From: Paludibacteraceae bacterium
Lineage (GTDB): Bacteria; Bacteroidota; Bacteroidia; Bacteroidales; Paludibacteraceae
Length of the DNA: 35,054 nt
Direction: 5' to 3'
Assembly: GCA_024401455.1 (NCBI GenBank)
Contig: JAKSLA010000031.1
Span: 1 to 35,054 of the forward strand
This document shows, piece after piece, positions 18,393 to 34,666 of this stretch. How positions within the stretch are numbered: the first letter of the stretch is position 1; the number at the start of each line of letters is the position of its first letter. Made by a program: the position numbers and the translations under genes. The notes under the pieces are model-generated. The model was not told where the DNA came from. It ran no database searches and worked only from the letters and a program-made list of their open reading frames with translations.

Positions 18393-21300
18393 ATGTCATC
18401 TATAAAAAAACTTACAAACATACTACTATGGCTATTCCTATTCACGCTGAATGCTTTTTCGGCTGAAGAGTATGGAATATTTGACCACTATACGGCCAAC
18501 GACGGCCTCATATCCAACCGGGTATTCTCCATAACGACAGATAAAAACGGGTTCGTGTGGGCCTCAACCGACTTCGGATTGGAACTATTCGACGGCACCA
18601 AGTTCACCCACCACCGCAAAGCAGACTATCCCAACTTGGACAGAGAGGACTATATCTTCATTCACACACTCCCCAACGGGAACATCACGGCTGGCGGCTA
18701 CAACGGACTACTCTTAGAGTATGACCCGGTAAAAGATGAATTCCGCAATGTCATGCCTAAACAATTCAACGAAACTTTTTACAAAGAGACACTGCACATC
18801 TTCTACTCGCCACAAGGTGACCAATACGTAGTGACCAGCGCTGGCGTTTACACCTACGACCGCAAGAAAGAAGAATACACATGCGACAATCCTCTATACG
18901 AAATGACCAAGGACATCTATGTCCGTTCGCTATACGTTGACGCCAAAGGCCGTTACTGGATCGGCTCCATCGACTCGCTAATGGTGATTGAAAACGACGG
19001 AACCCACGTATTGACCTATGTTCCTAAAGGCGAGGCATGCAGTTTCATTCGTACCATACTTCCTCTCAACAACAACAAAATTGCCATAGCCGGGCAAAAC
19101 AACGAGATTTGGATTTTTGACGAAAGCACGGACTCTATCGCCGCCCCTACCGTCATCCCTACCCCGTTCAACTGCATCACGGACATCATCAGAGACAGAA
19201 GAGGCAGATTTTGGCTTCCTACGGACGGAAATGGACTTTGGTACACGGACGACAACCTCGCTAACCCAAAATCGTTCACCAAACTAATTCCTTATAACGC
19301 ATACATTGACGAAGCCAACAAAATATACTCCATCAAAGAGGATAAATATGGAGAAATTTGGTTCAGCACCCAGAACTCCGGTATATGGAGATACCGACAA
19401 AACAGTTCGTCGGGCATCTACACTTCAACCGACTTCGGATTTCCGCCTGCAGTCTGCACATCCTTCATCGAAGACGACGACCACAACCTTATCGTCAGCG
19501 TGGACGGCGGCGGTCTATACCGAATTGACACTCAAAAAAAATTCTCCAAGTTGACAAGTTTGCCTAACAACAACATTGCCAACATCACCCGCACGCAAAA
19601 CGACTACTGCATGGTGGCCACATGGGGCGGCGGTGTCATGCGATATTTTCCAAAGACGAACTCCATTGTCAAAGAACCATTCGAAGGCATAAACAATCCA
19701 AACAATAGTTTCTTCGGCATAAATGCAATGGCAAACGGCGACATCTACGCTTGCACAACAGGCGACGGATTTTACCTTAAAAAGAGCAATAAGAGCAAAT
19801 GGGAAAAACACATTCTCTACGACTCCTTGGCCAACGTACATCACAAATGGATTCAGTTCATCTACTCCGACACGCCGAATGAAATCTGGGTGAATTCATC
19901 CAGTACCCTTTGGCTCATCAAAGACAACAAGCAGATGATTGTCACCAAAGAGGAAGACCTCGACAAGAAACTCACCCCCCTCCAATTCTTCGACATTAAG
20001 GGCGATGGCGACGGATATGTCTTCGTAGCCACCAACAAGGGTATCAAGCGAATCTCCGCCAATAGAGAAATCGAGGATTTGAACTACGTTCCCGAATCTC
20101 TTTTCCGCATCCTATTAAAGGACGACAACGGAAAGTATTGGGCTGCTGGCGACAAGGGCATTTATTGTTTCGACCCAAAGACAAAGACTTGTACGAAACT
20201 ACCGGGAAACTTCACAGACGTTGCCACCAACTACTTCTATTTCAGAGCAGGGTTCAAGGCTTCCGACGGAAAACTCTATTTCGGTACAAACGTGGGATTC
20301 ATCTGTGTCGATCCAAAGCAACTCTCATTTGAAACTACCATCGAGCAAATTTCTCTCGCTGCCCTCTCCATCAACAATAAAAAAGTCAGACTGGACGAGG
20401 CACCGCTCAACGGAACACCGATCTCTAAAAAGGAGAGCATCAGATTGCCATACGGACAGACGGACATCTCTCTCAATATTCATATGGCAGACTTTGCCCA
20501 AGTGGACAAAGCGATATGCCAATACCGTTTAGTCGGATTGCAAGACCAATGGCAGAACGTAGCGCCTGACCGCACCATCCGATTCTCCTACATTCCAACG
20601 GGAAACTTCACTTTGGAGGTGAAAGCCTTTCGTACCAACGAAGAGTGCGAAGAGAAATTTTCTTCACTGAAAATCACGGTGCTACCTCCTTGGTGGGCTA
20701 CTTGGTGGTTCATCTCCCTTATGGTTATCCTTCTCGTTTTGGTAGCCATTCTCATCTACAAACGTAGAGTGCGCAATCTCATCGAAATGAAAAACCGACT
20801 AAACAAGGAGGTGGCTTCGCGCACGTCTGAACTTCAAATCGCCTTGAAAGACAAGGACAACCTCATATCCGTCATCGGACACGACCTCAGAAATCCGATG
20901 TTTGCCATCGTTGTGGCATTGGAAAACTGGCTCAACAAAGAGTACACCATGAACGACGAGACCAAACACCACCTCATCGAAGAGGTGCTCAATTCGGCCA
21001 AGACGCTCCAAGGGGAGATGCTGAAACTACTCAACTGGGCACGTTCCAAACAAAGCGACGTGGTATGCAAGCCACAGGAGATTGACATTGAGCCAATCAT
21101 CAACGACGCCGCCCTTCTTAGCGACGCCTTGCTGAAAAACAAAAAGATTGAAGTAGAGAAGAACATCGCGTTGACGCATAAGGCATATGCCGACGATAGA
21201 ATGATCAGCACTGTCATCCGCAACCTTTTGGGCAATGCCATAAAATATACGAACGAAGGCGGAAAGATTTGCATCAATGCTTGGGAAGACGACCATAACA

Positions 21301-22400
21301 TCCATATCGCCATCAAAGATTCCGGCGTAGGCATCTCGGAGGATGTCTTGGCAAAAATCAATGAAGCCGAGCAACAGGAGATGAGTAGTACGGTCGGCAC
21401 GAAACAAGAACAGGGAACTGGATTAGGCCTCAACATCTGCAAAAAGTACATACAACGCAACAACGGCGTCTTGAAAGCAGAGAGCCAGCCTGGCGAAGGA
21501 ACAACCATCACCATCACCATTCCTATCTCCGTAGCGAAGACCTCCGCCTGCCAAAAAGAAGAGGCGGAAGCTGTTGAAAAGAAAGTCTCCCAAGAGATGA
21601 TCTCCGGCAACATGATTCTGATTGTAGATGATAATCCGCTCATCTGCGAAAACATGAAGACGCTTCTCTCTGACCTCTGCGACGTCATTGTTGCCCACAA
21701 CGGACAAGAAGCGTTGGAGATTGCTACGGAAAACGAGATTGACCTCATATTGAGCGATGTGGACATGCCTGTCATGGACGGTATCGAACTTTGCACCCAA
21801 TTGCAGAAAGACGCCACAACCGCCTGCATCCCATTCCTATTCGTCTCCGGACGCGTAGAAGAGGACGACAAGTTGAAAGGCCTTTCCAAGGGCGCCATCG
21901 ACTACATCACCAAACCGTTCAATCAGGATGAACTTTTGGCTAAAATATGTAGCCTATTCCATTATCGTTCCTTGGCACAAAAGCATATTTTGGAGAACCT
22001 CATGCACAACCAAGGGGATAAAGAGGAAAATGTGAATGAAAATAATGAAACGACAGAAGAGGCAGACGTCACAATCAACAATCCGTTCCTCAATCAGTTT
22101 ATGGAACTCATCCGTCTGCACCACGCCAACCCTGAGTTATCGGTAGATGACTTGGCCGACGATCTATGCGTCAGCCGATCAACAATGTTCCGACGTATTA
22201 AGACAATCGTCGGAAAATCGCCAGTCGAACTCTTAGGCGAATATCGTTTGAACGAGGCCATGCGCCAACTTAAGCAGAACGACACGACCTCAGTCAATGA
22301 AGTGGCTTATGCTGTCGGTTTCTCTGACGCCTCCTACTTCAGCAAGAAGTTCAAGGCTCACTTCGGCATCAACCCGACGCAAGCAAGGGAAAAACAATGA
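18393..22400 (+). CDS. Hybrid two-component system regulator (HTCS), single-chain sensor and AraC-type regulator
   Basis: A 1335-aa inner-membrane protein joining sensor and transcription factor, as in Bacteroidetes glycan-sensing HTCS proteins. In order: signal peptide (to about 24); a periplasmic sensor of two-component regulator propeller repeats with WxSTDxGLxxFDG-type motifs (about 30-690); a Y_Y_Y-like immunoglobulin domain; one membrane helix rich in Trp/Leu (about 769-790); histidine kinase with H830 in the H-box (GHDLRNP); ATPase with N-box NLLGNAIKYTNEGG near 947 and GTGLGLNIC near 1008; receiver with IVDDN and phospho-acceptor D1122; and a C-terminal AraC-type DNA-binding domain (about 1230-1335) with two helix-turn-helix units. 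All catalytic residues appear present. HTCS genes usually adjoin the polysaccharide locus they control; no SusC/SusD or glycoside hydrolase is in this window, so the ligand is unknown. Confidence 0.95.
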   Translation: MSSIKKLTNILLWLFLFTLNAFSAEEYGIFDHYTANDGLISNRVFSITTDKNGFVWASTDFGLELFDGTKFTHHRKADYPNLDREDYIFIHTLPNGNITAGGYNGLLLEYDPVKDEFRNVMPKQFNETFYKETLHIFYSPQGDQYVVTSAGVYTYDRKKEEYTCDNPLYEMTKDIYVRSLYVDAKGRYWIGSIDSLMVIENDGTHVLTYVPKGEACSFIRTILPLNNNKIAIAGQNNEIWIFDESTDSIAAPTVIPTPFNCITDIIRDRRGRFWLPTDGNGLWYTDDNLANPKSFTKLIPYNAYIDEANKIYSIKEDKYGEIWFSTQNSGIWRYRQNSSSGIYTSTDFGFPPAVCTSFIEDDDHNLIVSVDGGGLYRIDTQKKFSKLTSLPNNNIANITRTQNDYCMVATWGGGVMRYFPKTNSIVKEPFEGINNPNNSFFGINAMANGDIYACTTGDGFYLKKSNKSKWEKHILYDSLANVHHKWIQFIYSDTPNEIWVNSSSTLWLIKDNKQMIVTKEEDLDKKLTPLQFFDIKGDGDGYVFVATNKGIKRISANREIEDLNYVPESLFRILLKDDNGKYWAAGDKGIYCFDPKTKTCTKLPGNFTDVATNYFYFRAGFKASDGKLYFGTNVGFICVDPKQLSFETTIEQISLAALSINNKKVRLDEAPLNGTPISKKESIRLPYGQTDISLNIHMADFAQVDKAICQYRLVGLQDQWQNVAPDRTIRFSYIPTGNFTLEVKAFRTNEECEEKFSSLKITVLPPWWATWWFISLMVILLVLVAILIYKRRVRNLIEMKNRLNKEVASRTSELQIALKDKDNLISVIGHDLRNPMFAIVVALENWLNKEYTMNDETKHHLIEEVLNSAKTLQGEMLKLLNWARSKQSDVVCKPQEIDIEPIINDAALLSDALLKNKKIEVEKNIALTHKAYADDRMISTVIRNLLGNAIKYTNEGGKICINAWEDDHNIHIAIKDSGVGISEDVLAKINEAEQQEMSSTVGTKQEQGTGLGLNICKKYIQRNNGVLKAESQPGEGTTITITIPISVAKTSACQKEEAEAVEKKVSQEMISGNMILIVDDNPLICENMKTLLSDLCDVIVAHNGQEALEIATENEIDLILSDVDMPVMDGIELCTQLQKDATTACIPFLFVSGRVEEDDKLKGLSKGAIDYITKPFNQDELLAKICSLFHYRSLAQKHILENLMHNQGDKEENVNENNETTEEADVTINNPFLNQFMELIRLHHANPELSVDDLADDLCVSRSTMFRRIKTIVGKSPVELLGEYRLNEAMRQLKQNDTTSVNEVAYAVGFSDASYFSKKFKAHFGINPTQAREKQ

Positions 22401-22459: not shown

Positions 22460-22489
22460 TAGAAGCACCGACAAGGCTCGGGGCTTCTA
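22460..22489 (+). terminator. Terminator of the HTCS gene
   Basis: TAGAAGCaCCGA pairs with TCGGgGCTTCTA (arms 22460-22471 and 22478-22489, one A-G mismatch). A short T run follows at about 22496. The 3' arm overlaps the stop codon of the convergent kinase gene. Confidence 0.65.
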
Positions 22490-25012
22490 CTTCACGTTTT
22501 TCTTTATCCGCTCCAACTCCGCATCGCCCTGCAAAACAATCTCGGCAATCTTTTTGCCATTTGCTTCAAAGCGTTGGGTGTCAGCCATCACTTCCGGCTT
22601 TTCCAACTCCAATTCGGTGAGCCAAGTCACCAACGTATTATCACCCAAAAGTTTGAAAATGGCAAGCATTTTATGCGCCAACCGTCCAACGGCATGCGCA
22701 TCACCCTCCTTATGCAAACGCGCCAATTCAACCACATTCTTCTTCGTCTCCACCAAGAACGACGAGAGAATTTCATATTCAGCGTTCACATCACCACCCG
22801 CATACGAGAGGATGCTTGCAAAACCTTGAAGAGGCGCAGACTGGTCCGTCTCTTTCTGAGACCGCATCGGGAAGTCCTCTTTTATTCCCGTATATTTCAC
22901 AATCTCACTCACCAACTTATCGCCCGTAAACGGCTTGTTCAAGAAGGAGGTAAAGCCATGTTTCTTAAATTTCGATAGAGAAATATCCGCCCGCGCAGAA
23001 AGGGCGATCACAGGTATAGTCTTCGCATTCGGGAAGTTTCCGTTACGCACACGCTTTACAATCTCAAATCCATTGAATCCAGGCATCTGAATATCGGACA
23101 AGATAATATCAAAAGTATTTTTCTCTATCACATCCAACGCCGCATAAGGATCAACGCAGGCTGTACAAGTGATGCCTCTGCTTTTCAGCAACTCCGACAC
23201 CATTGTCAGTTGCGAAGGATCATCGTCGATGACCAAAACCCGAAGTTCTATCTTCTTTTCCGGCTCTTTAGGCTTGACTACCTGCATTTCGTTTGAATAG
23301 GCCAATGGGAGAACAATGGTAAAGGTTGAACCTTTGCCCTCTTCGCTTTCGACCGCCAACGAACCGTTATGTATATCCACCAATTTCTTCATTATGGACA
23401 ATCCCAAGCCAAAGCCTTCCACAGCAACCTCATCCGACTCGATACGCACATACTCATTGAAGATGACCTTCTGATTCTCTTCCGAAATTCCAACACCCGT
23501 ATCGGCTACGACAATCTGCAGAGCGCAAGTGGCATCCTCCTTTTTCGCCAAAGAGACATAGAGGGTCACTCCCCCCTTTTGCGTGAACTTTACGGCATTA
23601 GAAACAAGATTATCCACAATTTGACGAATACGAAGCGGGTCACCCAACAGCATCTCCTGCTCCGTGTCTGAGGTATAATTGAAATTCAACTGCAGATTCT
23701 TCTTCTCCGCCTGAGGACGGAATGTATTGGCTACACCTTCAAACAAACTGCGACTATTAAAAGGCAATGGATTGAGTTCCACTACCCCCGCATCCAAACG
23801 GTTGAAATCCAAAATGTCGGTAACAAGTCGCAGGATATGCTCTGAAGAGGTCTTCATATTCCCTAAATAATAACTCTGCTTTACATTCAGTTTATTATCA
23901 TCCAACAACTCTATATAACCAATGATGGAACTCAACGGAGCCTTAATGTCGTGCGCCACGCTCAACATCAGTTTCTCACGGTTGTCCATCAGTTTCAACG
24001 TCTGCTGATTCGCCCTCTCCAATTGACGGCTGTAGCGCTTGCTCCTATTCACGTCACGCCACACCATCATGATAAGCACGAAAAGCAGCACCATCGCAAA
24101 TCCCACAAAATAGCGAAGGTAAACCATCAATTTATCAAGGCTTGCCTCTCGCTCATCAACGGAGTTGACGGCATTGTTCCAATCCTCCTCCTGCAATTCA
24201 TGAATGATGACATTCATCTTGGTATTGATGGACTTATTCATCCTTTGAATCTCCATCATCCTGCTCATTATCGTTCGGTCAAGTATCACTTTCTGCTCCC
24301 GTACTTGTGACTTCAGCGATTCAAAAATGCGATTGATCGTGTCGGCAGGATTATAGGAAGACAATAACGAATCCGTAACGGAATACTCCCTCTTTCTAAC
24401 CTCCACCATCGTGTCTTCCGGCTCGGAAGAGGAGAATATACGACGGAAAAAGGAGCGTTTTTTGGAGGAAGGACGCTTATAGGTAAAAGTATCGCTCACA
24501 ACTGTAACCGTCTGTTCTACAATTCGGTTCGTGAGCAAAGAGTCGTTCTCCTCGATAGCCTTCAGCAACTGCTTTCGGTAGAGTTCGTCAATCGTCGAAT
24601 TGGCCGCAAGAAAGACCAAATTCTGAACATTACGACGTTTCTGCGACAACAACACCGTCAGCGAATCCAAAAGGGCAAGTTGTTCCTCTTCCTCAAAGAG
24701 TTCCTTCATCTCCGAAATCTGTTTCGTAATAGAATCTGAGAGTGTGGCATATTCCTTAAATTTCGAAGGGGTGATCAATGCCTCCCCAATAAGGCATTCT
24801 GCTTCATAGAGATTAAAAAAGGTACTGTTGAGCGAATACATCTTCTCCTTCGTCACCTGACGGGAGGTGTCAAAAATCGAAAACGAACGTAGATTATTGA
24901 TGACAAAAAAGACGGAAACCACCGCCACTAATACGATCAGCAGATAGCCTGCCAAGACCTTCGTCTTCAGGAATTGAAATCCCGCGGGCAACTGTTTCTC
25001 TCTTTTTTCCAT
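22487..25012 (-). CDS. Hybrid sensor histidine kinase with receiver and Hpt domains
   Basis: An 841-aa inner-membrane phosphorelay kinase. TM1 lies at about 19-40 and TM2 at 302-318, enclosing a mostly helical periplasmic sensor region (about 260 residues) with no named fold. Then come a HisKA domain with H354 (SVAHDIKAPLSS), an ATPase domain (DNLVSNAVKF, ADTGVGIS, GFGLGLSIMKK), a receiver with VIDDD and acceptor D640 (LSDIQMPG), and a C-terminal Hpt domain with H780 (GRLAHKML). It therefore carries His-Asp-His, and the final phosphate should pass to a separate receiver. The gene follows the NtrC-like regulator by 12 nt in one operon, so D52 of that protein is the obvious target. Start ATG at 25012 fits the spacing. 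Confidence 0.93.
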   Translation of the reverse strand: MEKREKQLPAGFQFLKTKVLAGYLLIVLVAVVSVFFVINNLRSFSIFDTSRQVTKEKMYSLNSTFFNLYEAECLIGEALITPSKFKEYATLSDSITKQISEMKELFEEEEQLALLDSLTVLLSQKRRNVQNLVFLAANSTIDELYRKQLLKAIEENDSLLTNRIVEQTVTVVSDTFTYKRPSSKKRSFFRRIFSSSEPEDTMVEVRKREYSVTDSLLSSYNPADTINRIFESLKSQVREQKVILDRTIMSRMMEIQRMNKSINTKMNVIIHELQEEDWNNAVNSVDEREASLDKLMVYLRYFVGFAMVLLFVLIMMVWRDVNRSKRYSRQLERANQQTLKLMDNREKLMLSVAHDIKAPLSSIIGYIELLDDNKLNVKQSYYLGNMKTSSEHILRLVTDILDFNRLDAGVVELNPLPFNSRSLFEGVANTFRPQAEKKNLQLNFNYTSDTEQEMLLGDPLRIRQIVDNLVSNAVKFTQKGGVTLYVSLAKKEDATCALQIVVADTGVGISEENQKVIFNEYVRIESDEVAVEGFGLGLSIMKKLVDIHNGSLAVESEEGKGSTFTIVLPLAYSNEMQVVKPKEPEKKIELRVLVIDDDPSQLTMVSELLKSRGITCTACVDPYAALDVIEKNTFDIILSDIQMPGFNGFEIVKRVRNGNFPNAKTIPVIALSARADISLSKFKKHGFTSFLNKPFTGDKLVSEIVKYTGIKEDFPMRSQKETDQSAPLQGFASILSYAGGDVNAEYEILSSFLVETKKNVVELARLHKEGDAHAVGRLAHKMLAIFKLLGDNTLVTWLTELELEKPEVMADTQRFEANGKKIAEIVLQGDAELERIKKNVK

Positions 25013-25024
25013 CGTTCATCATTA

Positions 25025-26317
25025 TTAGAGGATACCTAAACTCCTCAACTTATTATAGAGTGTCTTACGGTCTATTTGCAACATAGCAGCCGCTTGCGAC
25101 TTATTGTTGTTGCAGTCCTTCAACGCCTTCATGATTTTTCGCTTCTCCGAGTTGGCATCACGCAGCGCCAATCCGTCTTCCTCCTCATTTACCGCAAACC
25201 TACTATTCAACATCTCAGTCGGCAGAAGGGTAACGGAGACAAACGGGGATTTTGAGAGCAGGACAACTCGCTTGATGACATTGCGCAACTCACGCATATT
25301 GCCGGGCCACGCGTAATCCAGCAAGGCCGCTATCGCCTCTTTGTCAAAGCCGACAACATCTTTTCCCATCTCCTCATTCGCCTCGTTTACAAAATGGTCG
25401 GCATAGAGCAGAATATCACCCTTTCGTTCTCTAAGACTCGGCACACAAATGGAAAACTCGTTCACCAAATGGTAAAGTTCGCCCAACGAAGAGAGTTCGG
25501 CCGTGTCTAAAGAAGTGGAGGCTATCAAGCGGACATCCATAGGGAACTCCTCTTTATCCAACGGACGGACTACGCCATCGCGTAATGTCTGCGTCAAGAG
25601 TGCGCGAACATTCTCCGGCAGGTTCTCCAACCCCTGCAAAAAAAGCGTTCCTCCGGCTGCTTGGCGGAAGAATCCCTCCTTCCCCTCATTGCCAAAGAGT
25701 TCGGACGCGGCATTTTCTTGGCTCAAAGTGGCACAATCGACCACCACAAATCCTTCACGCCTACCGCTCTCGATATGTATTTGACGAGCCACGACGCCTT
25801 TGCCTGAACCAGGCTCGCCTGAAAGCAAGACGGACATAGCCGTAGGAGCCACCAAACGAATATATTCATGCAATTTTTGAGAAGCCTCGCTCCTGCCTGG
25901 CATATAATCGGCAAAAGTGGCCACCTGATTTTGAGAAATTCTGCGTTGCTGCGTTTTCTTCTGCGCCAACGCCTCCTTTATCTTGTTATGAAGTTCTTCC
26001 GGATTGATCGGTTTGGCAATAAAGTCAAAGGCACCCAATTTCATGCTATTGACGGCAGACTGAACTTCGGCATAACTCGTCATCACCACAAACGGCACAT
26101 CAATCCCCTGCCCCTTCATCCATGCAAGCAAAACAATACCATCCTCGTCTGGAAGACGCAAATCAGACAATACTATATCATAAGCCCCGTCCGTCATACA
26201 ACGCTTGGCCTCGGCTACAGTGCTGGCACAATCGACGGAAAACCCTCGCTTGCCCAACCATGTGCGCAACATTACACTGAATGTTATATCATCTTCCAAC
26301 ATTAATATACGCTTCAT
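25025..26317 (-). CDS. NtrC-like response regulator with degenerate AAA+ domain
   Basis: A 430-aa response regulator: receiver (1-120; E8, D9, D10, acceptor D52, T80, K102), AAA+ domain (about 140-370) and a Fis-type helix-turn-helix (about 390-430, SQAAAMLQIDRKTLYNKL). It has the layout of sigma-54 activators but lacks their working parts. Walker A survives as GEPGSGKG (167-174). The GAFTGA loop that contacts sigma-54 is missing: ELFGNEGKEGFFRQA (206-220) replaces the longer canonical stretch. The Walker B acidic pair is QG (228-229) instead of DE. The segment that normally reads FREDLYYRLN has lost both arginines (SLGELYHLVN). It probably regulates without sigma-54 or ATP hydrolysis, by phosphorylation-dependent DNA binding. 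It is the first gene of the operon with the hybrid kinase. Confidence 0.92.
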   Translation of the reverse strand: MKRILMLEDDITFSVMLRTWLGKRGFSVDCASTVAEAKRCMTDGAYDIVLSDLRLPDEDGIVLLAWMKGQGIDVPFVVMTSYAEVQSAVNSMKLGAFDFIAKPINPEELHNKIKEALAQKKTQQRRISQNQVATFADYMPGRSEASQKLHEYIRLVAPTAMSVLLSGEPGSGKGVVARQIHIESGRREGFVVVDCATLSQENAASELFGNEGKEGFFRQAAGGTLFLQGLENLPENVRALLTQTLRDGVVRPLDKEEFPMDVRLIASTSLDTAELSSLGELYHLVNEFSICVPSLRERKGDILLYADHFVNEANEEMGKDVVGFDKEAIAALLDYAWPGNMRELRNVIKRVVLLSKSPFVSVTLLPTEMLNSRFAVNEEEDGLALRDANSEKRKIMKALKDCNNNKSQAAAMLQIDRKTLYNKLRSLGIL

Positions 26318-26361: not shown

Positions 26362-26369
26362 CAAAAATA
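26362..26369 (-). promoter_or_regulatory. -7 box of the regulator/kinase operon
   Basis: On the minus strand TATTTTTG matches TAnnTTTG, 45 nt before the regulator ATG. I see no -24/-12 sigma-54 promoter in the 26318-26519 gap. Confidence 0.55.
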
Positions 26370-26519: not shown

Positions 26520-27869
26520 TTATCTCACACGCAATTGTTGACCTTGGTTTATACGGTCAGAACGCAGGTTGTTCAAACGTTTGAGCGTCGCCACATTGAT
26601 GCCGTGTCTGCGGGCTATGCTTGAAAGCGTATCGCCCGGACGAACTACATAATAGCCACTGGCCGATGGACGCGCATTTCGAACAGGTGCTTTAGTCCCT
26701 TTCGCCCCTTTCGCTCCGCCCCTCACTCGACCATAATATGGATCATGGGCAGCCGGCACCACCACAATGCGGTTGGTATTCAACGAATCGGCCTTATAGG
26801 CTACGATGGAGTCTTTGTTTTCGATAAAACTGTTTACATACTTTTGAGGCAAGCACAACGTATAAGGCACGCCGTTGCCCGGCAAAATCTGCTGACGGTA
26901 TTGAGGATTCAATGCCTCCAACTCACACATATCAACGCCCAACACTTCGGAAATCTGTACGAAATGCAATCGGTCGCTCACCACCAATGTATCGCAAGTA
27001 ATCGGCATATCTATGGCCTGAGGACAGAAATTGTGCTCCTTATAGTACGTCATCGTGTAGGTGGCTGCGATGAAAGCAGGCACATAGCCTCTCGTCTCCT
27101 TAGGCAAGTAAGGATAAATGCCCCAATAGTCACGCTTACCGCCAGAACGCTTGATGGCTTTGTTCACATTACCAGGACCGCAGTTGTAGGCGGCGATCAC
27201 CAATGCCCAATCATTATAAATACCGTACAAATCTTTCAAATAGCGGACAGCCGCATTGGTTGCCTTGATAGGATCACGGCGCTCGTCTATCAAACTATTT
27301 CCCTCCAAACCGTAAATCTTACCCGTTGAGTACATGAACTGCCAAAGACCAGAAGCTCCGGCTCGGGAAAATGCCCTCGGATTGAGAGCCGACTCTATGA
27401 CGGGCAGATACTTCAACTCGATAGGAAGCCCTGCCGCATCGAGCGATTGCTCAAAAATCGGGAAGTAATATTTACCAGCCCCCAACATATATTCCACCTG
27501 CTTACGCTTGCGGACGGTATATAATTCGATAAAACGCTTTACTATATCATTGTAGGCCAACTCCATAATGGCAGGTATCTGACTGAGACGACGCATATAG
27601 ACACTATCGCTCAACACATGACCAACACTGTCCGACTTACAATCGCCCGTAGCCACCGACTTAAACTTGAAAACATGAAGAAGGCTATCGAGATTCATAT
27701 CGATATCTGTGACTTCGTCCACCGAATCATTTTCATAAAGAGAATCAACCACGGCAATCGTAGATTCCACACTCTCCACAGTTTCTACTTCTACAGCCTT
27801 CGCCCTTGCCGCAAATGATAATGAAAAACACGAAACCCATAATAGAATGGGTAAACACAAATACTTCAT
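26520..27869 (-). CDS. mltD: Membrane-bound lytic murein transglycosylase D (SLT domain plus LysM)
   Basis: A 449-aa exported lytic transglycosylase that cleaves the glycan backbone of peptidoglycan. A signal peptide ends near SLSFAARA; there is no lipobox, so it is probably periplasmic despite the family name. The SLT domain has catalytic E159 (PVIESALNP), then GASGLWQFM, DERRDP, AAVRYLKDLY and AAYNCGPGNV. A spacer follows, then one C-terminal LysM (YYVVRPGDTLSSIARRHG...GQQLRVR) that binds glycan. E. coli MltD has two LysM modules; only one clear module is seen here. It is the last gene of the par cluster, after DUF5683. A conserved hairpin element lies 5-40 nt before its start. Confidence 0.94.
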   Translation of the reverse strand: MKYLCLPILLWVSCFSLSFAARAKAVEVETVESVESTIAVVDSLYENDSVDEVTDIDMNLDSLLHVFKFKSVATGDCKSDSVGHVLSDSVYMRRLSQIPAIMELAYNDIVKRFIELYTVRKRKQVEYMLGAGKYYFPIFEQSLDAAGLPIELKYLPVIESALNPRAFSRAGASGLWQFMYSTGKIYGLEGNSLIDERRDPIKATNAAVRYLKDLYGIYNDWALVIAAYNCGPGNVNKAIKRSGGKRDYWGIYPYLPKETRGYVPAFIAATYTMTYYKEHNFCPQAIDMPITCDTLVVSDRLHFVQISEVLGVDMCELEALNPQYRQQILPGNGVPYTLCLPQKYVNSFIENKDSIVAYKADSLNTNRIVVVPAAHDPYYGRVRGGAKGAKGTKAPVRNARPSASGYYVVRPGDTLSSIARRHGINVATLKRLNNLRSDRINQGQQLRVR

Positions 27870-27874
27870 AACTA

Positions 27875-27906
27875 TAAAAGGGACTCTACAAATTCCCCGA
27901 TTTTTA
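27875..27906. repeat. Hairpin element A of the par cluster (mltD leader)
   Basis: Read on the minus strand: outer stem TAAAA/TTTTA, bulge ATC, inner stem GGGA/TCCC with one extra G, loop ATTTGTAGAG. It lies just before the mltD ATG and matches element B (28818-28854) over 23 nt with one mismatch and one gap, in opposite orientation. The rest of 27907-28067 shows no gene. Confidence 0.55.
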
Positions 27907-28067
27907 ATGTTTAACCTTTAGGCGGCCTATAAACCCTTGATGCCTGACAAATCCGTCAAAAAAACACAAAGCAATTTTTTTAGAAGCCCCCTAAAATAAA
28001 TCATCTATTCAACAACTGCCTTTTTCCTTAGACAGCCACTAAGTAAGTTGAGATAGAGATACTAACC

Positions 28068-28754
28068 TCAAAAACTAATCGAACATTGAAATCCATAAAC
28101 GGAAGAACCCATCTCCATACCGTCTTTGTTTGAACCATAAGGATTTACATAAGGCTCAACACGCAAAGAAAGGTCGTCCGAAACAGAAAAATCATATAAA
28201 TGGGCGTCCACAAACGCATCCACAACGCTCACCACATAAAGGGCAGCCATACCGAAAATACTCAAATCACGGTATCGACGGTACATATCACGACGCTTCT
28301 TCAATGCGCTCTTCATCCACTCATCGCCATAGTCGGCACGATTGGGCACCAAACTCATATAACTGTTCGTCGTAGGGTCCGTATCCATTATATCGTGATA
28401 GGCATTCTTATAATCATTATACATCCTACCGTTCCACACAATCAAATAACTAAGTGTGGCAATGCCTCCGTAAAGCACCGGAACCTTCCAATAACTGCGG
28501 TTATAAATCTGGCCTAAACCAGGACAGACCAAAGCATACCAAGTAGCCTTGGCTGGATCTGGCCTAAAATCTGAAGCCGCCAATGGCGGAAGGGATGAGG
28601 GCACCAGCCCCGTCGTCGTATCAATGACGACAAAGACATCTCCGTTCGCCGTCGTAATGACCGAGTCTTGCATCTCTGCAGCCACAGCCGAACGCATGCC
28701 CCAACCGAGCAGCGAAACCAATACGAATAAATATGTATAAACTACCTTTTTCAA
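28068..28754 (-). CDS. DUF5683 family membrane protein
   Basis: A 228-aa protein of the DUF5683 family, a Bacteroidetes envelope protein of unknown function usually found with parA, parB and mltD. A signal-like segment (YTYLFVLVSLLGWGM) is followed by the core KATWYALVCPGLGQIYNRSYWKVP near residue 60, two hydrophobic segments (GGIATLSYLIVWN and IFGMAALYVVSVVDAFVDAHL) and a C-terminal beta tail ending in FQCSISF, possibly porin-like. No ATG gives a full signal peptide. I prefer a TTG at 28754; a TTG at 28865 overlapping the parB stop would add 37 atypical residues. The start is therefore uncertain. Confidence 0.8.
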   Translation of the reverse strand: MKKVVYTYLFVLVSLLGWGMRSAVAAEMQDSVITTANGDVFVVIDTTTGLVPSSLPPLAASDFRPDPAKATWYALVCPGLGQIYNRSYWKVPVLYGGIATLSYLIVWNGRMYNDYKNAYHDIMDTDPTTNSYMSLVPNRADYGDEWMKSALKKRRDMYRRYRDLSIFGMAALYVVSVVDAFVDAHLYDFSVSDDLSLRVEPYVNPYGSNKDGMEMGSSVYGFQCSISF

Positions 28755-28817
28755 CTTTATATCTATCTTTTTAAGGTGGCTCTGAAAAGAGTTCCGAGTG
28801 TCACAATCACATTTATT

Positions 28818-28854
28818 TCTTAAAATCGGTGAATTTGTAGAGGTCACCTTAAGA
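28818..28854. repeat. Hairpin element B of the par cluster (between parB and DUF5683)
   Basis: On the plus strand: outer stem TCTTAA/TTAAGA, bulge AATC, inner stem GGTGA/TCACC, loop ATTTGTAGAGG. It has the same design and nearly the same loop as element A with compensating stem changes, but opposite orientation. It lies in the presumed DUF5683 leader. Confidence 0.55.
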
Positions 28855-28861
28855 TTTCGGG

Positions 28862-29767
28862 TCAATGCTTGATGGAGTCGAATATTTCCATCAACTTCTC
28901 CAACTCTTCGTCACTGCCGAACGAGATGACCACCTTGCCTTTGCCTTTTGCATTACGCGTGAGCGCCACTTTATTGGATGGGAAGAGATCGGTCAACATA
29001 TCCCTCAACAAGAGGTATTCGTCCGAAGCGTTTTCGTCGCTTGCCGGCTTTTCGCCACTATTCTCGTCCTCATCCACCGATTGCTCCGCCATTTTGCGGA
29101 CCAACTCCTCCACCTTGCGAACGGAGAGATTATTCTTCAGAATCTGAGAATAGATATCCATCTGGTCGGCCTCGCTTACCACACTAATGAGGGCACGCGC
29201 ATGACCCATATCGATCTTCTTCTCCTTCAGGCCCATCTGGATCTCTGCCGGCAAAGTCAAAAGTCGCAAATAGTTGGAAATAGTGGCACGTTTCTTACCG
29301 ATACGCTCACTCAACTTCTCCTGCGTATAGTTACATACCTCCATCAAACTTTTGTAGGAAAGTGCAACCTCGACGGCATTCAAGTCCTCGCGTTGGATAT
29401 TCTCCACAAGGGCCATCTCCATCATCTGCTCATCCGTCGTATCACGGACATAAGCGGGAATCGTAGTCAACTCGGCTAATTTGGCCGCACGATAACGACG
29501 CTCTCCTGCAATGATAATATATTTATTATCAGCCACCTTACGCAACGTAATTGGCTGAATAACACCCAACTGACGTATAGATTCGGATAATTCGAGCAAA
29601 GCCTCCGCCTCGAAATTTTTTCTGGGCTGATCAGGATTAGGCTCAATTTCCGACAATGGAATCTCATTCAAAGAGGAGGCACCTGCCGCTACGACCTCTG
29701 ATTTCGCATCTGCACCATCTATCAAGGCGTCGAGCCCTCTACCTAAACCACTAAACTTCTTTGCCAT
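28862..29767 (-). CDS. parB: Chromosome partitioning protein ParB
   Basis: A 301-aa ParB/Spo0J protein, a CTP-dependent clamp that loads on parS sites and spreads to organise and segregate the origin region. Seen: the N-terminal ParA-activating tail (KKFSGLGRGLDALI), box with QPRKNF, the CTP-binding motif GERRYRAA (88-95), NIQREDLNAVEVA, the helix-turn-helix (YTQEKLSERIGKKRATISNYLRLL, trimmed here), and a C-terminal dimerisation domain. The start at 29767 is chosen because family members begin MAKK..GLGRGLDALI; an in-frame TTG or GTG-type extension upstream is not conserved. It is downstream of parA. I found no convincing parS site in the window. Confidence 0.96.
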   Translation of the reverse strand: MAKKFSGLGRGLDALIDGADAKSEVVAAGASSLNEIPLSEIEPNPDQPRKNFEAEALLELSESIRQLGVIQPITLRKVADNKYIIIAGERRYRAAKLAELTTIPAYVRDTTDEQMMEMALVENIQREDLNAVEVALSYKSLMEVCNYTQEKLSERIGKKRATISNYLRLLTLPAEIQMGLKEKKIDMGHARALISVVSEADQMDIYSQILKNNLSVRKVEELVRKMAEQSVDEDENSGEKPASDENASDEYLLLRDMLTDLFPSNKVALTRNAKGKGKVVISFGSDEELEKLMEIFDSIKH

Positions 29768-29781
29768 ATATCTATCTTCTA

Positions 29782-29815
29782 TCTTATGGGGCCTTTGCAA
29801 TTCCCCGTTTTTCTA
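29782..29815. repeat. Hairpin element C of the par cluster (parB leader)
   Basis: On the minus strand GGGG (29803-29806) pairs with CCCC (29788-29791) around AATTGCAAAGG, preceded by AAAAAC. It resembles elements A and B in the loop and upstream A-rich part but lacks a clear outer stem. It lies about 15-20 nt before the parB ATG. Confidence 0.4.
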
Positions 29816-29859
29816 ATTCTACATTTTTGGGATTCCTTGAGCAAGCAATCAGAAGTCCC

Positions 29860-30639
29860 TTATTTTTGACTCTCCGCTGCTGACTTCTCCACCAACTCTT
29901 TAGCCAACTGCATATAGTTTTGCGCACCTCTCGACTCTGCATCGTAAGAGATGACCGATTGACCGAAACTTGGAGCCTCACCCAACTTCACATTTCGTTG
30001 GATAATCGTCTTGAACACCATATCGCCAAAGTGACGCTGCACCTCATCTACCACTTGGTTGTTAAGACGGGTACGAGGGTCATACATGGTCAACAAGAAA
30101 CCTTCGATCTCCAACGACGTATTCAACTTGTTCTTCACGATTTTGATGGTGTTGAGCAACTTGGAGATTCCCTCCAACGCGTAATACTCACACTGCACTG
30201 GGATGATGACCGAATCACTTGACGTCAAGGCATTCAATGTTATCAAACCCAAAGAAGGAGAACAATCTATCAAGATGTAGTCGAATTCATCGCGGACGCT
30301 TGACAAAATCTTCCTCAAAAGCATCTCACGCTCCGGCATGTCCACCATCTCCAACTCTGCACCCACCAAATCAATATGGGAAGGAACAATCTTCAAGGTT
30401 TCAATCTCCGTATCGCAAATGGCTTCTCTGACATCCACATTATCCACCAAGCACTCATATATAGTGCTCTTCAGGTTCTTGACATCAAGACCTAAGCCAG
30501 ATGAGGCATTCGCTTGAGGATCGGCATCCACAATCAAGACTTTCTTTTCCATTACAGCCAAAGCAGCCGCAAGGTTAACTGTTGAAGTGGTCTTGCCTAC
30601 TCCACCCTTCTGATTTGCCAATGATATAATTTTTCCCAT
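29860..30639 (-). CDS. parA: Chromosome partitioning ATPase ParA (Soj)
   Basis: A 259-aa ParA-type ATPase that binds nucleoid DNA in its ATP form and drives origin segregation with ParB. The deviant Walker A motif KGGVGKTT is at 11-18, Walker A' is in VDADPQANASSG, and Walker B lies in YILIDCSPSLG. The length is that of chromosomal Soj proteins without an extra N-terminal regulatory domain. It is the first gene of the parA-parB-DUF5683-mltD cluster, 92 nt before parB, and has its own promoter box. Confidence 0.96.
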   Translation of the reverse strand: MGKIISLANQKGGVGKTTSTVNLAAALAVMEKKVLIVDADPQANASSGLGLDVKNLKSTIYECLVDNVDVREAICDTEIETLKIVPSHIDLVGAELEMVDMPEREMLLRKILSSVRDEFDYILIDCSPSLGLITLNALTSSDSVIIPVQCEYYALEGISKLLNTIKIVKNKLNTSLEIEGFLLTMYDPRTRLNNQVVDEVQRHFGDMVFKTIIQRNVKLGEAPSFGQSVISYDAESRGAQNYMQLAKELVEKSAAESQK

Positions 30640-34087: not shown

Positions 34088-34158
34088 TATGGGCGCACCT
34101 TGTGGGTGACCTTCTCGCATTTCGCCCAACGGCGGGGAATGCAATATTCATTCGAACG
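34088..34158. repeat. REP-like repeat, left copy, overlapping the transposase 3' end
   Basis: A hairpin-forming segment (GGGCGCACC, TTGT, GGGTGACC at 34091-34111), then a stretch containing CGCATTTCGC, ACGGCGGGGAA and TATTCATT. It is roughly 80% identical by eye to 34782-34852 on the other side of the RAYT gene, in direct orientation about 694 nt away. It runs into the last codons of the transposase gene. Confidence 0.7.
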
Positions 34159-34666
34159 GGATTTCCTTTTCAAATTCTTTGGCACACCAACGAACAGGAT
34201 TATTTTGGATGTATTTTATAATCCGACAATAATCCATCAAACCGCGGACAATATGTTCATAATAATTTCTTTGCCACAATCTTTTCTCGAAAGGCATCCA
34301 CAAGCCCCTCCTTACACCCGATATATATTCATTCGTTGAAATGGATTTGAACGCACCAATTACAGATGGCATAGAGATTGTCCCATCAGAAGAGGAAAGG
34401 TCAACAATGGCATGAAAATGATTGGGCATAACAACATATTGATTGATAGATAAAGATGGGTACCGTTGATGGATTTGTTCCCAACATGATTTTACCATTT
34501 CACCCGCATCGTTGAGCACCATTTTCCCATCGCATACATTGCCAAACAATGGTTGTCGGCTTTGCACACAAATGGTCACAAAATAGAGCCTCGGCTTTGC
34601 ATAATCGAACCCTTTCAATCGTATTGAATGTCGATTATAATTTCTTAATTCATTATTTATTATCAT
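34148..34666 (-). CDS. REP-associated tyrosine transposase (RAYT, IS200-like Y1 domain)
   Basis: A 172-aa member of the Y1 transposase (HUH nuclease) superfamily of the RAYT type, which cuts single-stranded REP hairpins and is linked to their spread. Seen: an N-terminal RLYFVTICVQSRQPLFG, the metal-binding HUH motif in MPNHFHAIV (H83, H85), and NYYEHIVRG with the likely nucleophile Tyr135 or Tyr136, then CRIIKYIQNNP. Length fits full RAYTs, so it appears intact. It stands alone with its own well-formed promoter and is flanked by similar repeats, which are probably its substrates. RAYTs are usually single-copy domesticated genes rather than mobile IS elements. Confidence 0.92.
   Translation of the reverse strand: MIINNELRNYNRHSIRLKGFDYAKPRLYFVTICVQSRQPLFGNVCDGKMVLNDAGEMVKSCWEQIHQRYPSLSINQYVVMPNHFHAIVDLSSSDGTISMPSVIGAFKSISTNEYISGVRRGLWMPFEKRLWQRNYYEHIVRGLMDYCRIIKYIQNNPVRWCAKEFEKEIPFE

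Follow-up and report, generated by a model that had tools for sequence, protein, structure and literature searches.

A phosphorelay-linked response regulator of Paludibacteraceae that lacks the sigma-54 activator motifs of its AAA+ domain

Introduction

Several relatives of the NtrC-type sigma-54 activators (bEBPs) lack the GAFTGA loop. The accessible part of a 2011 survey lists VpsR, TyrR, DhaR, HupR and YplP among the relatives with a defective GAFTGA and puts the number of such homologues at about 110; it states sigma-70 dependence for TyrR, DhaR and HupR and proposes sigma-54 independence for YplP (PMC3162934). According to the available text of a 2023 preprint, VpsR and the NtrC proteins of Rhodobacter capsulatus and Caulobacter all act at sigma-70 promoters (PMC10274813). 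In the same text, VpsR is reported to be a c-di-GMP sensor for which phosphorylation and ATP are dispensable, and R. capsulatus NtrC, in which a loop deletion removes GAFTGA, is reported to be phosphorylation-dependent, to work with sigma-70 and to require ATP binding but not hydrolysis (PMC10274813).

Caulobacter NtrC lost GAFTGA by an eight-residue deletion; it is described, in the portions available, as both an activator and a repressor at sigma-70 promoters, and its phospho-site matters (PMC10274813, PMC12421884). Its authors infer that ATP hydrolysis is retained (PMC10274813, in part). Excerpts of a 2025 mBio paper report that some Caulobacter NtrC alleles can raise certain sigma-54-dependent genes despite having no GAFTGA (PMC12421884), so loss of the loop does not by itself exclude all sigma-54 effects. 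The literature searched, which lay outside subscription papers and was available in part, gave no GAFTGA-less case in Bacteroidales, a weak negative. Here we describe a regulator from this order in which the loop has been lost together with other key motifs of the AAA+ motor.

Results

The window is a stretch of 35,054 nucleotides (positions 1 to 35,054 of contig JAKSLA010000031.1) from a Paludibacteraceae genome, GCA_024401455.1 (G000; 119 contigs, 90.3% complete, 5.28% contamination). It contains an open reading frame for a response regulator of 430 residues at 25025..26317 on the reverse strand, as are all features of the regulator given below. Pfam places a receiver at residues 4-114 (25976..26308; PF00072, E=1.1e-22), with the phospho-acceptor D52 at 26162-26164, followed by Sigma54_activat at 141-279, the AAA lid at 296-374 and a Fis-type HTH (HTH_8) at 390-425 (25043..25150; PF02954, E=5.3e-12). 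This is the receiver, AAA+ and Fis-type HTH layout that a first-pass annotation had read from the letters of the DNA. Together with the full-length orthologues described below, the Pfam domains show the layout of, and descent from, an NtrC-type sigma-54 activator. In the PDB, the full-length protein best matches 4l4u, a chain of the NtrC family, and residues 138-372 best match VpsR of Vibrio cholerae (7v2b, E 1.5e-41, HMMER).

Aligning the regulator with 39 intact orthologues revealed losses at four motifs. Most of the orthologues read S(E/D)(L/F)FGHxKG(S/A)FT in loop 1, and the regulator has SELFGN, nine gapped columns and then EGKEGFF (loop 1 region, residues 205-221; 25655..25705), which means that GAFTGA has been deleted. 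In the Walker B region, GGTLFLQGLE (residues 222-231; 25625..25654), QG occupies positions 228-229 where the orthologues have LDE. The sensor I region (residues 261-271; 25505..25537) has ASTS for AATN. In the arginine-finger region (residues 276-290; 25448..25492), FREDLYHR of the orthologues is reduced to ELYHL behind a four-residue gap, and both arginines are gone. Walker A, GEPGSGKG (residues 167-174; 25796..25819), is retained with K173, and so is the arginine of sensor II, WPGNMRELRN (residues 337-346; 25280..25309). Thus the regulator has neither GAFTGA or a functional variant of it, nor the Walker B DE, nor either finger arginine.

These alignments agree with the first-pass annotation, which had described a missing GAFTGA loop (206-220), a QG pair at 228-229 and a FREDLYYRLN segment without its two arginines, next to an intact Walker A lysine, receiver and HTH. 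It had also named the discovery of a misplaced GAFTGA loop or Walker B DE as grounds for withdrawing its reading. Misplacement can be rejected, as the alignments with the 39 intact orthologues and with the PDB chains are concordant and confirm the losses. An AlphaFold model of the AAA+ part, made from a two-row alignment, had a mean pLDDT of 43 and was not used. The case calls for some caution in annotation: in a domain scan, the Pfam Sigma54_activat model accepts the regulator at 89.8 bits (cut-off 20.2), and the protein stays below the cut-off in each of the 25 NCBIfam models listed.

To place these losses among relatives, we use g1 for the genus of the window, g27 for a second genus of the same family and G codes for genomes. 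The orthologue set has 52 members, 46 from 300 genomes (family search, E <= 1e-63) and six matches from five other Bacteroidales genomes; 13 are degenerate and 39 intact, and all were aligned with two paralogues from the window genome. Degenerate copies occur in each of the four g1 species that make up the sample of that genus and in nine of the 11 sampled g27 species, the other two g27 copies being intact. All 39 intact orthologues have GxFTxA (one as GSYTGA), the Walker B DE and both arginines. Those of G007, G170, G143 and G057, for example, share the layout of the window copy and an adjoining hybrid kinase with an Hpt-type histidine, but differ from it in having these three motifs. In many intact orthologues the loop motif reads GSFTSA or GxFTDA instead of GAFTGA, and their other motifs are unimpaired.

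A wider search of 393 genomes sampled across the order listed 111 matches, comprising 87 newly read copies, some of them second matches from one genome, seven already in the set and 17 low-scoring ones left unread. By motif count, the loop motif, LDE and the finger RxDL(Y/F)xR are present in 39/39 intact orthologues and in 87/87 further copies, and in none of the 13 degenerate copies. This makes 126 family members read outside the degenerate set, all of them intact. A contig scan yielded one true orthologue, L039 from g1, which is 78% identical in the regulator protein.

The lesions differ between the two genera. The Walker B pair is QG in the window copy, GG in the other three g1 species and EN or ED in the nine g27 species, and both arginine-finger columns are lost in all 13 degenerate copies. 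In g1, three species retain the length of the loop but not its letters, and the finger region is gapped. The degenerate g27 copies have a loop shortened by five residues and a finger of FSEDFHRF or a similar sequence, in which one arginine stands one residue ahead of the old second position and may represent a shifted arginine finger. Receiver residues D9, D10, D52, T80 and K102 and sensor II R342 are retained in 13/13 degenerate copies, each of which is an open frame of 430-442 residues.

We then compared constraint across the domains, defining a conserved column as one that is at least 95% identical in the 39 intact copies. All 13 such columns of the receiver are retained throughout the degenerate copies. 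The AAA+ core retains 27 of 57 in g1 and 25 of 57 in g27, and the AAA lid 7/7 and 6/7; the Walker A residues and the sensor II arginine are among those kept. No column of the C-terminal region reached 95% in the intact set, so the case for the HTH rests on pN/pS and on the stretch DRKTLYNK, which is found in 13/13 degenerate copies and in 27/39 and 80/87 intact copies. In the two degenerate groups, pN/pS is 0.07 and 0.04 for the HTH, 0.14 and 0.08 for the receiver and 0.24 and 0.18 for the AAA+ core, values that overstate dN/dS, as pS is near saturation. The HTH has the lowest value of the four domains in both groups, and every domain lies far below 1. The first-pass annotation had proposed checking whether the losses are shared by close homologues and under purifying selection. 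They are shared, in different forms, by the four g1 and by the nine g27 species, and strong purifying selection is seen on the receiver and HTH, with constraint kept on part of the AAA+ shell.

The degenerate groups have a higher pN in the AAA+ core than in the receiver (ratios of 2.05 [1.37-3.37] and 2.11 [1.43-3.35]). In three hand-chosen intact groups of 8, 7 and 6 copies (21 of the 39) the order is reversed, with ratios of 0.57, 0.65 and 0.74 and intervals that lie below 1. As judged by these substitution patterns, the motor is freed from its old constraint, and input and output are still constrained.

Immediately downstream of the regulator on the same strand, with 12 bases between its stop codon and the next start codon, lies the gene for a hybrid histidine kinase of 841 residues (22487..25012). 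Pfam finds HisKA, HATPase_c and REC in this protein and no match for its Hpt part; with the alignment, these assign HisKA H354, REC D640 and an Hpt-type H780. The three residues and the other marks tested are invariant in 48/48 neighbouring kinases aligned, which upholds the earlier pairing of the regulator with a hybrid kinase of phosphorelay type. With an acceptor site in its receiver and a partner carrying both REC and an Hpt histidine, the regulator has the sequence features expected of the output of a two-component phosphorelay.

A match to TAnnTTTG, which we take to be the housekeeping -7 element of Bacteroidales, lies 52 bases upstream of the regulator start codon (TATTTTTG; 26362..26369, reverse strand). 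The 300 bases preceding the regulator contain the same motif in 4/4 g1 species, 11/11 g27 species and G007, but not in G057. Its distance to the gene varies from 9 to 246 bases. As no -33 part matched, TATTTTTG is a weak promoter candidate. Upstream of the operon in the four g1 species we found no shared operator; the regions have one 7-mer in common, and their inverted repeats differ.

Other genes of the window were read alongside. A hybrid two-component protein of 1335 residues (18393-22400, forward strand), with Reg_prop, Y_Y_Y, HisKA, HATPase, REC and an AraC-type HTH, is convergent with the regulator-kinase pair, and 86 bases separate the ends of its gene and the kinase gene; nothing matching it was found next to the pair in the other three g1 stretches. 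The regulator is directly preceded by mltD-like, DUF5683, parB and parA genes (26520-30639, reverse strand), in an order retained in G002 and G003. An ORF of 172 residues (34148-34666, reverse strand) resembles, by eye, a REP-associated transposase, and a similar ORF starts the G003 stretch.

We also looked at the sigma-54 system of these genomes. The window genome has rpoN, as do 18 of the 19 genomes examined. G001, a g1 genome, gave no rpoN match despite a listed completeness of 100% and two high-scoring sigma-54 activators, and this absence may be an assembly gap. The window genome encodes two other sigma-54 activators, which score 244 and 227 bits in a genome search with Sigma54_activat. 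Across 16 genomes searched in this way (E <= 1e-15), each has three activators; low scores are confined to the focal one, and there to g1 and the nine g27 species. Among the 16 focal copies, that of the window is lowest at 92 bits; the 12 remaining degenerate ones reach 108-143 bits and the three intact orthologues 217-228, and both paralogues score at least 225 in 16/16 genomes. Since rpoN and two high-scoring paralogues persist, the sigma-54 system has not been lost; rather, one activator appears to have left it. On the same counts we reject a loss of sigma-54 from the lineage.

We found no conserved -24/-12 site near the operon, a scan of 54 stretches giving scattered matches only. Over whole genomes, exact -24/-12 matches numbered 4-9 in each of 14 genomes, compared to 0-7 in a reversed control. 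The totals were 61 in the 11 degenerate genomes (control 45) and 18 in the three intact genomes (control 1), and matches were clearly above control only in G003, G007, G143, G158, G162 and G170. As the number per genome is similar in degenerate and intact genomes, no targets can be assigned.

One sigma-54 type site, TGGCACAAGAATTGCA, is letter-identical in 4/4 g1 genomes (G000:C1, G001:C19, G002:C26, G003:C4). At the three loci read (L208, L206 and L209, all but that of G002), the site is followed after 214-255 bases by a gene for a lipoprotein that, as judged by eye, contains a rhodanese-like stretch. In four g27 species (L219, L225, L215, L231), similar secreted-looking proteins that share NAQCWW are preceded by TGGCAYRNNNNTTGCW sites at a distance of about 300-360 bases.

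The degenerate copies thus fall in two genera of one family; the affected motifs coincide, and the lesions are distinct. The two intact g27 copies and the two degenerate ones with neighbours listed (G029, G162) are all located between IspF-like and LysE-like genes (named by eye), so exchange for a distant copy need not be invoked. A tree built from receiver, HTH and kinase, using 25 rows out of the 48 that have a neighbouring kinase, holds g27 together at 100/100 and rejects a single degenerate clade (AU p = 0.0005). A receiver and HTH tree of 54 rows, with long branches, accommodates one degenerate clade (AU p = 0.258) and leaves the number of losses unsettled. Both groups have lost the same 14 conserved AAA+ columns, compared to 9.6 expected (P = 0.017, with columns treated as equal and independent), indicating that the losses were partly parallel. 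Taken together, the alignments and trees make it very likely that this one orthologous family lost the motor on two occasions, and one of the two genera still has intact copies.

Discussion

Missing the loop 1 motif in an AAA+ domain of apparent bEBP descent, the regulator would belong to the GAFTGA-less bEBPs. The first-pass annotation considered the joint loss of Walker B and arginine-finger positions to go beyond the known cases. This is not so, as the 7v2b alignment gives the same set for VpsR. VpsR too has no GAFTGA; ND replaces its Walker B DE, the finger arginines are changed to N and Y, sensor I reads AANS, and Walker A is retained. By this alignment, both proteins have lost the loop motif, the acidic pair of Walker B, the two finger arginines and the Asn of sensor I. 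Unlike VpsR, the regulator has intact phospho-sites in its receiver and an intact phosphorelay kinase as its partner. No GGDEF match was found in the window genome, which is 90.3% complete.

NtrB is not a hybrid kinase. It is the partner of R. capsulatus NtrC (PMC10274813, in part), which in this respect is unlike the regulator, although both have lost GAFTGA by deletion. Caulobacter NtrC shares the deletion as well, but differs in retaining the Walker B Asp, which is needed for growth in defined ammonium medium according to the available text (PMC10274813). The likeness to HupR, TyrR, DhaR and YplP, in which GAFTGA is substituted or deleted, is drawn from description in the accessible part of the survey (PMC3162934).

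We consider it probable that the regulator is the output of a hybrid-kinase phosphorelay that was twice converted from a sigma-54 activator to a sigma-54-independent regulator, with an AAA+ domain that no longer hydrolyzes ATP. The lost residues, viewed in the light of established bEBP biochemistry, including the roles of sensor I and sensor II, predict a protein without ATP hydrolysis or sigma-54 contact. Phosphorelay input is well supported by the conserved residues and gene order, from which we infer that the hybrid kinase would relay phosphate along H354, D640 and H780 and on to D52 of the regulator. Phosphorylation would then rearrange or oligomerize the regulator through its AAA+ shell, perhaps with nucleotide bound and unhydrolyzed, as suggested by the retention of Walker A and sensor II alongside the loss of Walker B and the arginine fingers. 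Without the Walker B Asp, however, nucleotide may be bound less firmly. The constraint on the HTH supports DNA binding; this domain would bind its sites and act, as activator, repressor or both, at promoters of the housekeeping sigma factor, by analogy with VpsR, Rhodobacter NtrC and Caulobacter NtrC.

Other explanations share some of this evidence. The strong conservation of the HTH, with DRKTLYNK common to degenerate and intact copies, and the persistence of rpoN with two intact activators would also suit a brake on sigma-54, in which the regulator still binds ancestral enhancers or mixes with the intact paralogues without opening promoters, acting as a phosphorylation-controlled competitor. 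We regard this as unlikely, given that the operon has no conserved -24/-12 site nearby and that genome-wide matches are similar per genome with degenerate and intact copies and assign no targets. Slow decay, with the regulator on its way to becoming a pseudogene and its AAA+ part drifting freely, would account for a core that changes at about twice the rate of the receiver in both groups and for the window copy having the lowest domain score. It is harder to reconcile with 13 full-length open frames beside a kinase with its phospho-sites, with pN/pS far below 1 in every domain and with losses common to four and nine species, and we think it improbable.

The GAFTGA-less Caulobacter NtrC mutants reported to promote some sigma-54-dependent expression (PMC12421884, in part) raise the idea that the regulator is still a sigma-54 activator, working through another loop and ATP site. 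Yet Caulobacter NtrC keeps a Walker B whose Asp is needed in defined ammonium medium (PMC10274813, in part), and the regulator has lost GAFTGA, Walker B, the sensor I Asn and both arginine fingers, making this idea very improbable. An error of assembly, sequencing or alignment might be suspected in a genome as fragmented as G000, but the corresponding losses are present in three other g1 assemblies, with other lesions in nine g27 copies. Recurrence in 13 copies shows that the losses are not a local error, and this reading is refuted.

Within the preferred reading, conversion of a phosphorelay output away from sigma-54, the fate of the motor can be described more closely, if tentatively. It is possible, at somewhat short of an even chance, that the AAA+ motor was dismantled twice at partly parallel positions, with input and output fixed, and reused as a nucleotide-held, non-hydrolyzing oligomer switch for the housekeeping polymerase. 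Here, both the nucleotide-held oligomerization and the action at housekeeping promoters are inferred.

GAFTGA-less bEBPs have so far been described mostly singly. The family reported here has intact and dismantled copies within one genus and between the same neighbours, so that a switch of sigma factor may be traced stepwise. With two apparent conversions inside one family, intact sisters and rpoN retained, the departure of an activator from sigma-54 would become comparable among close relatives.
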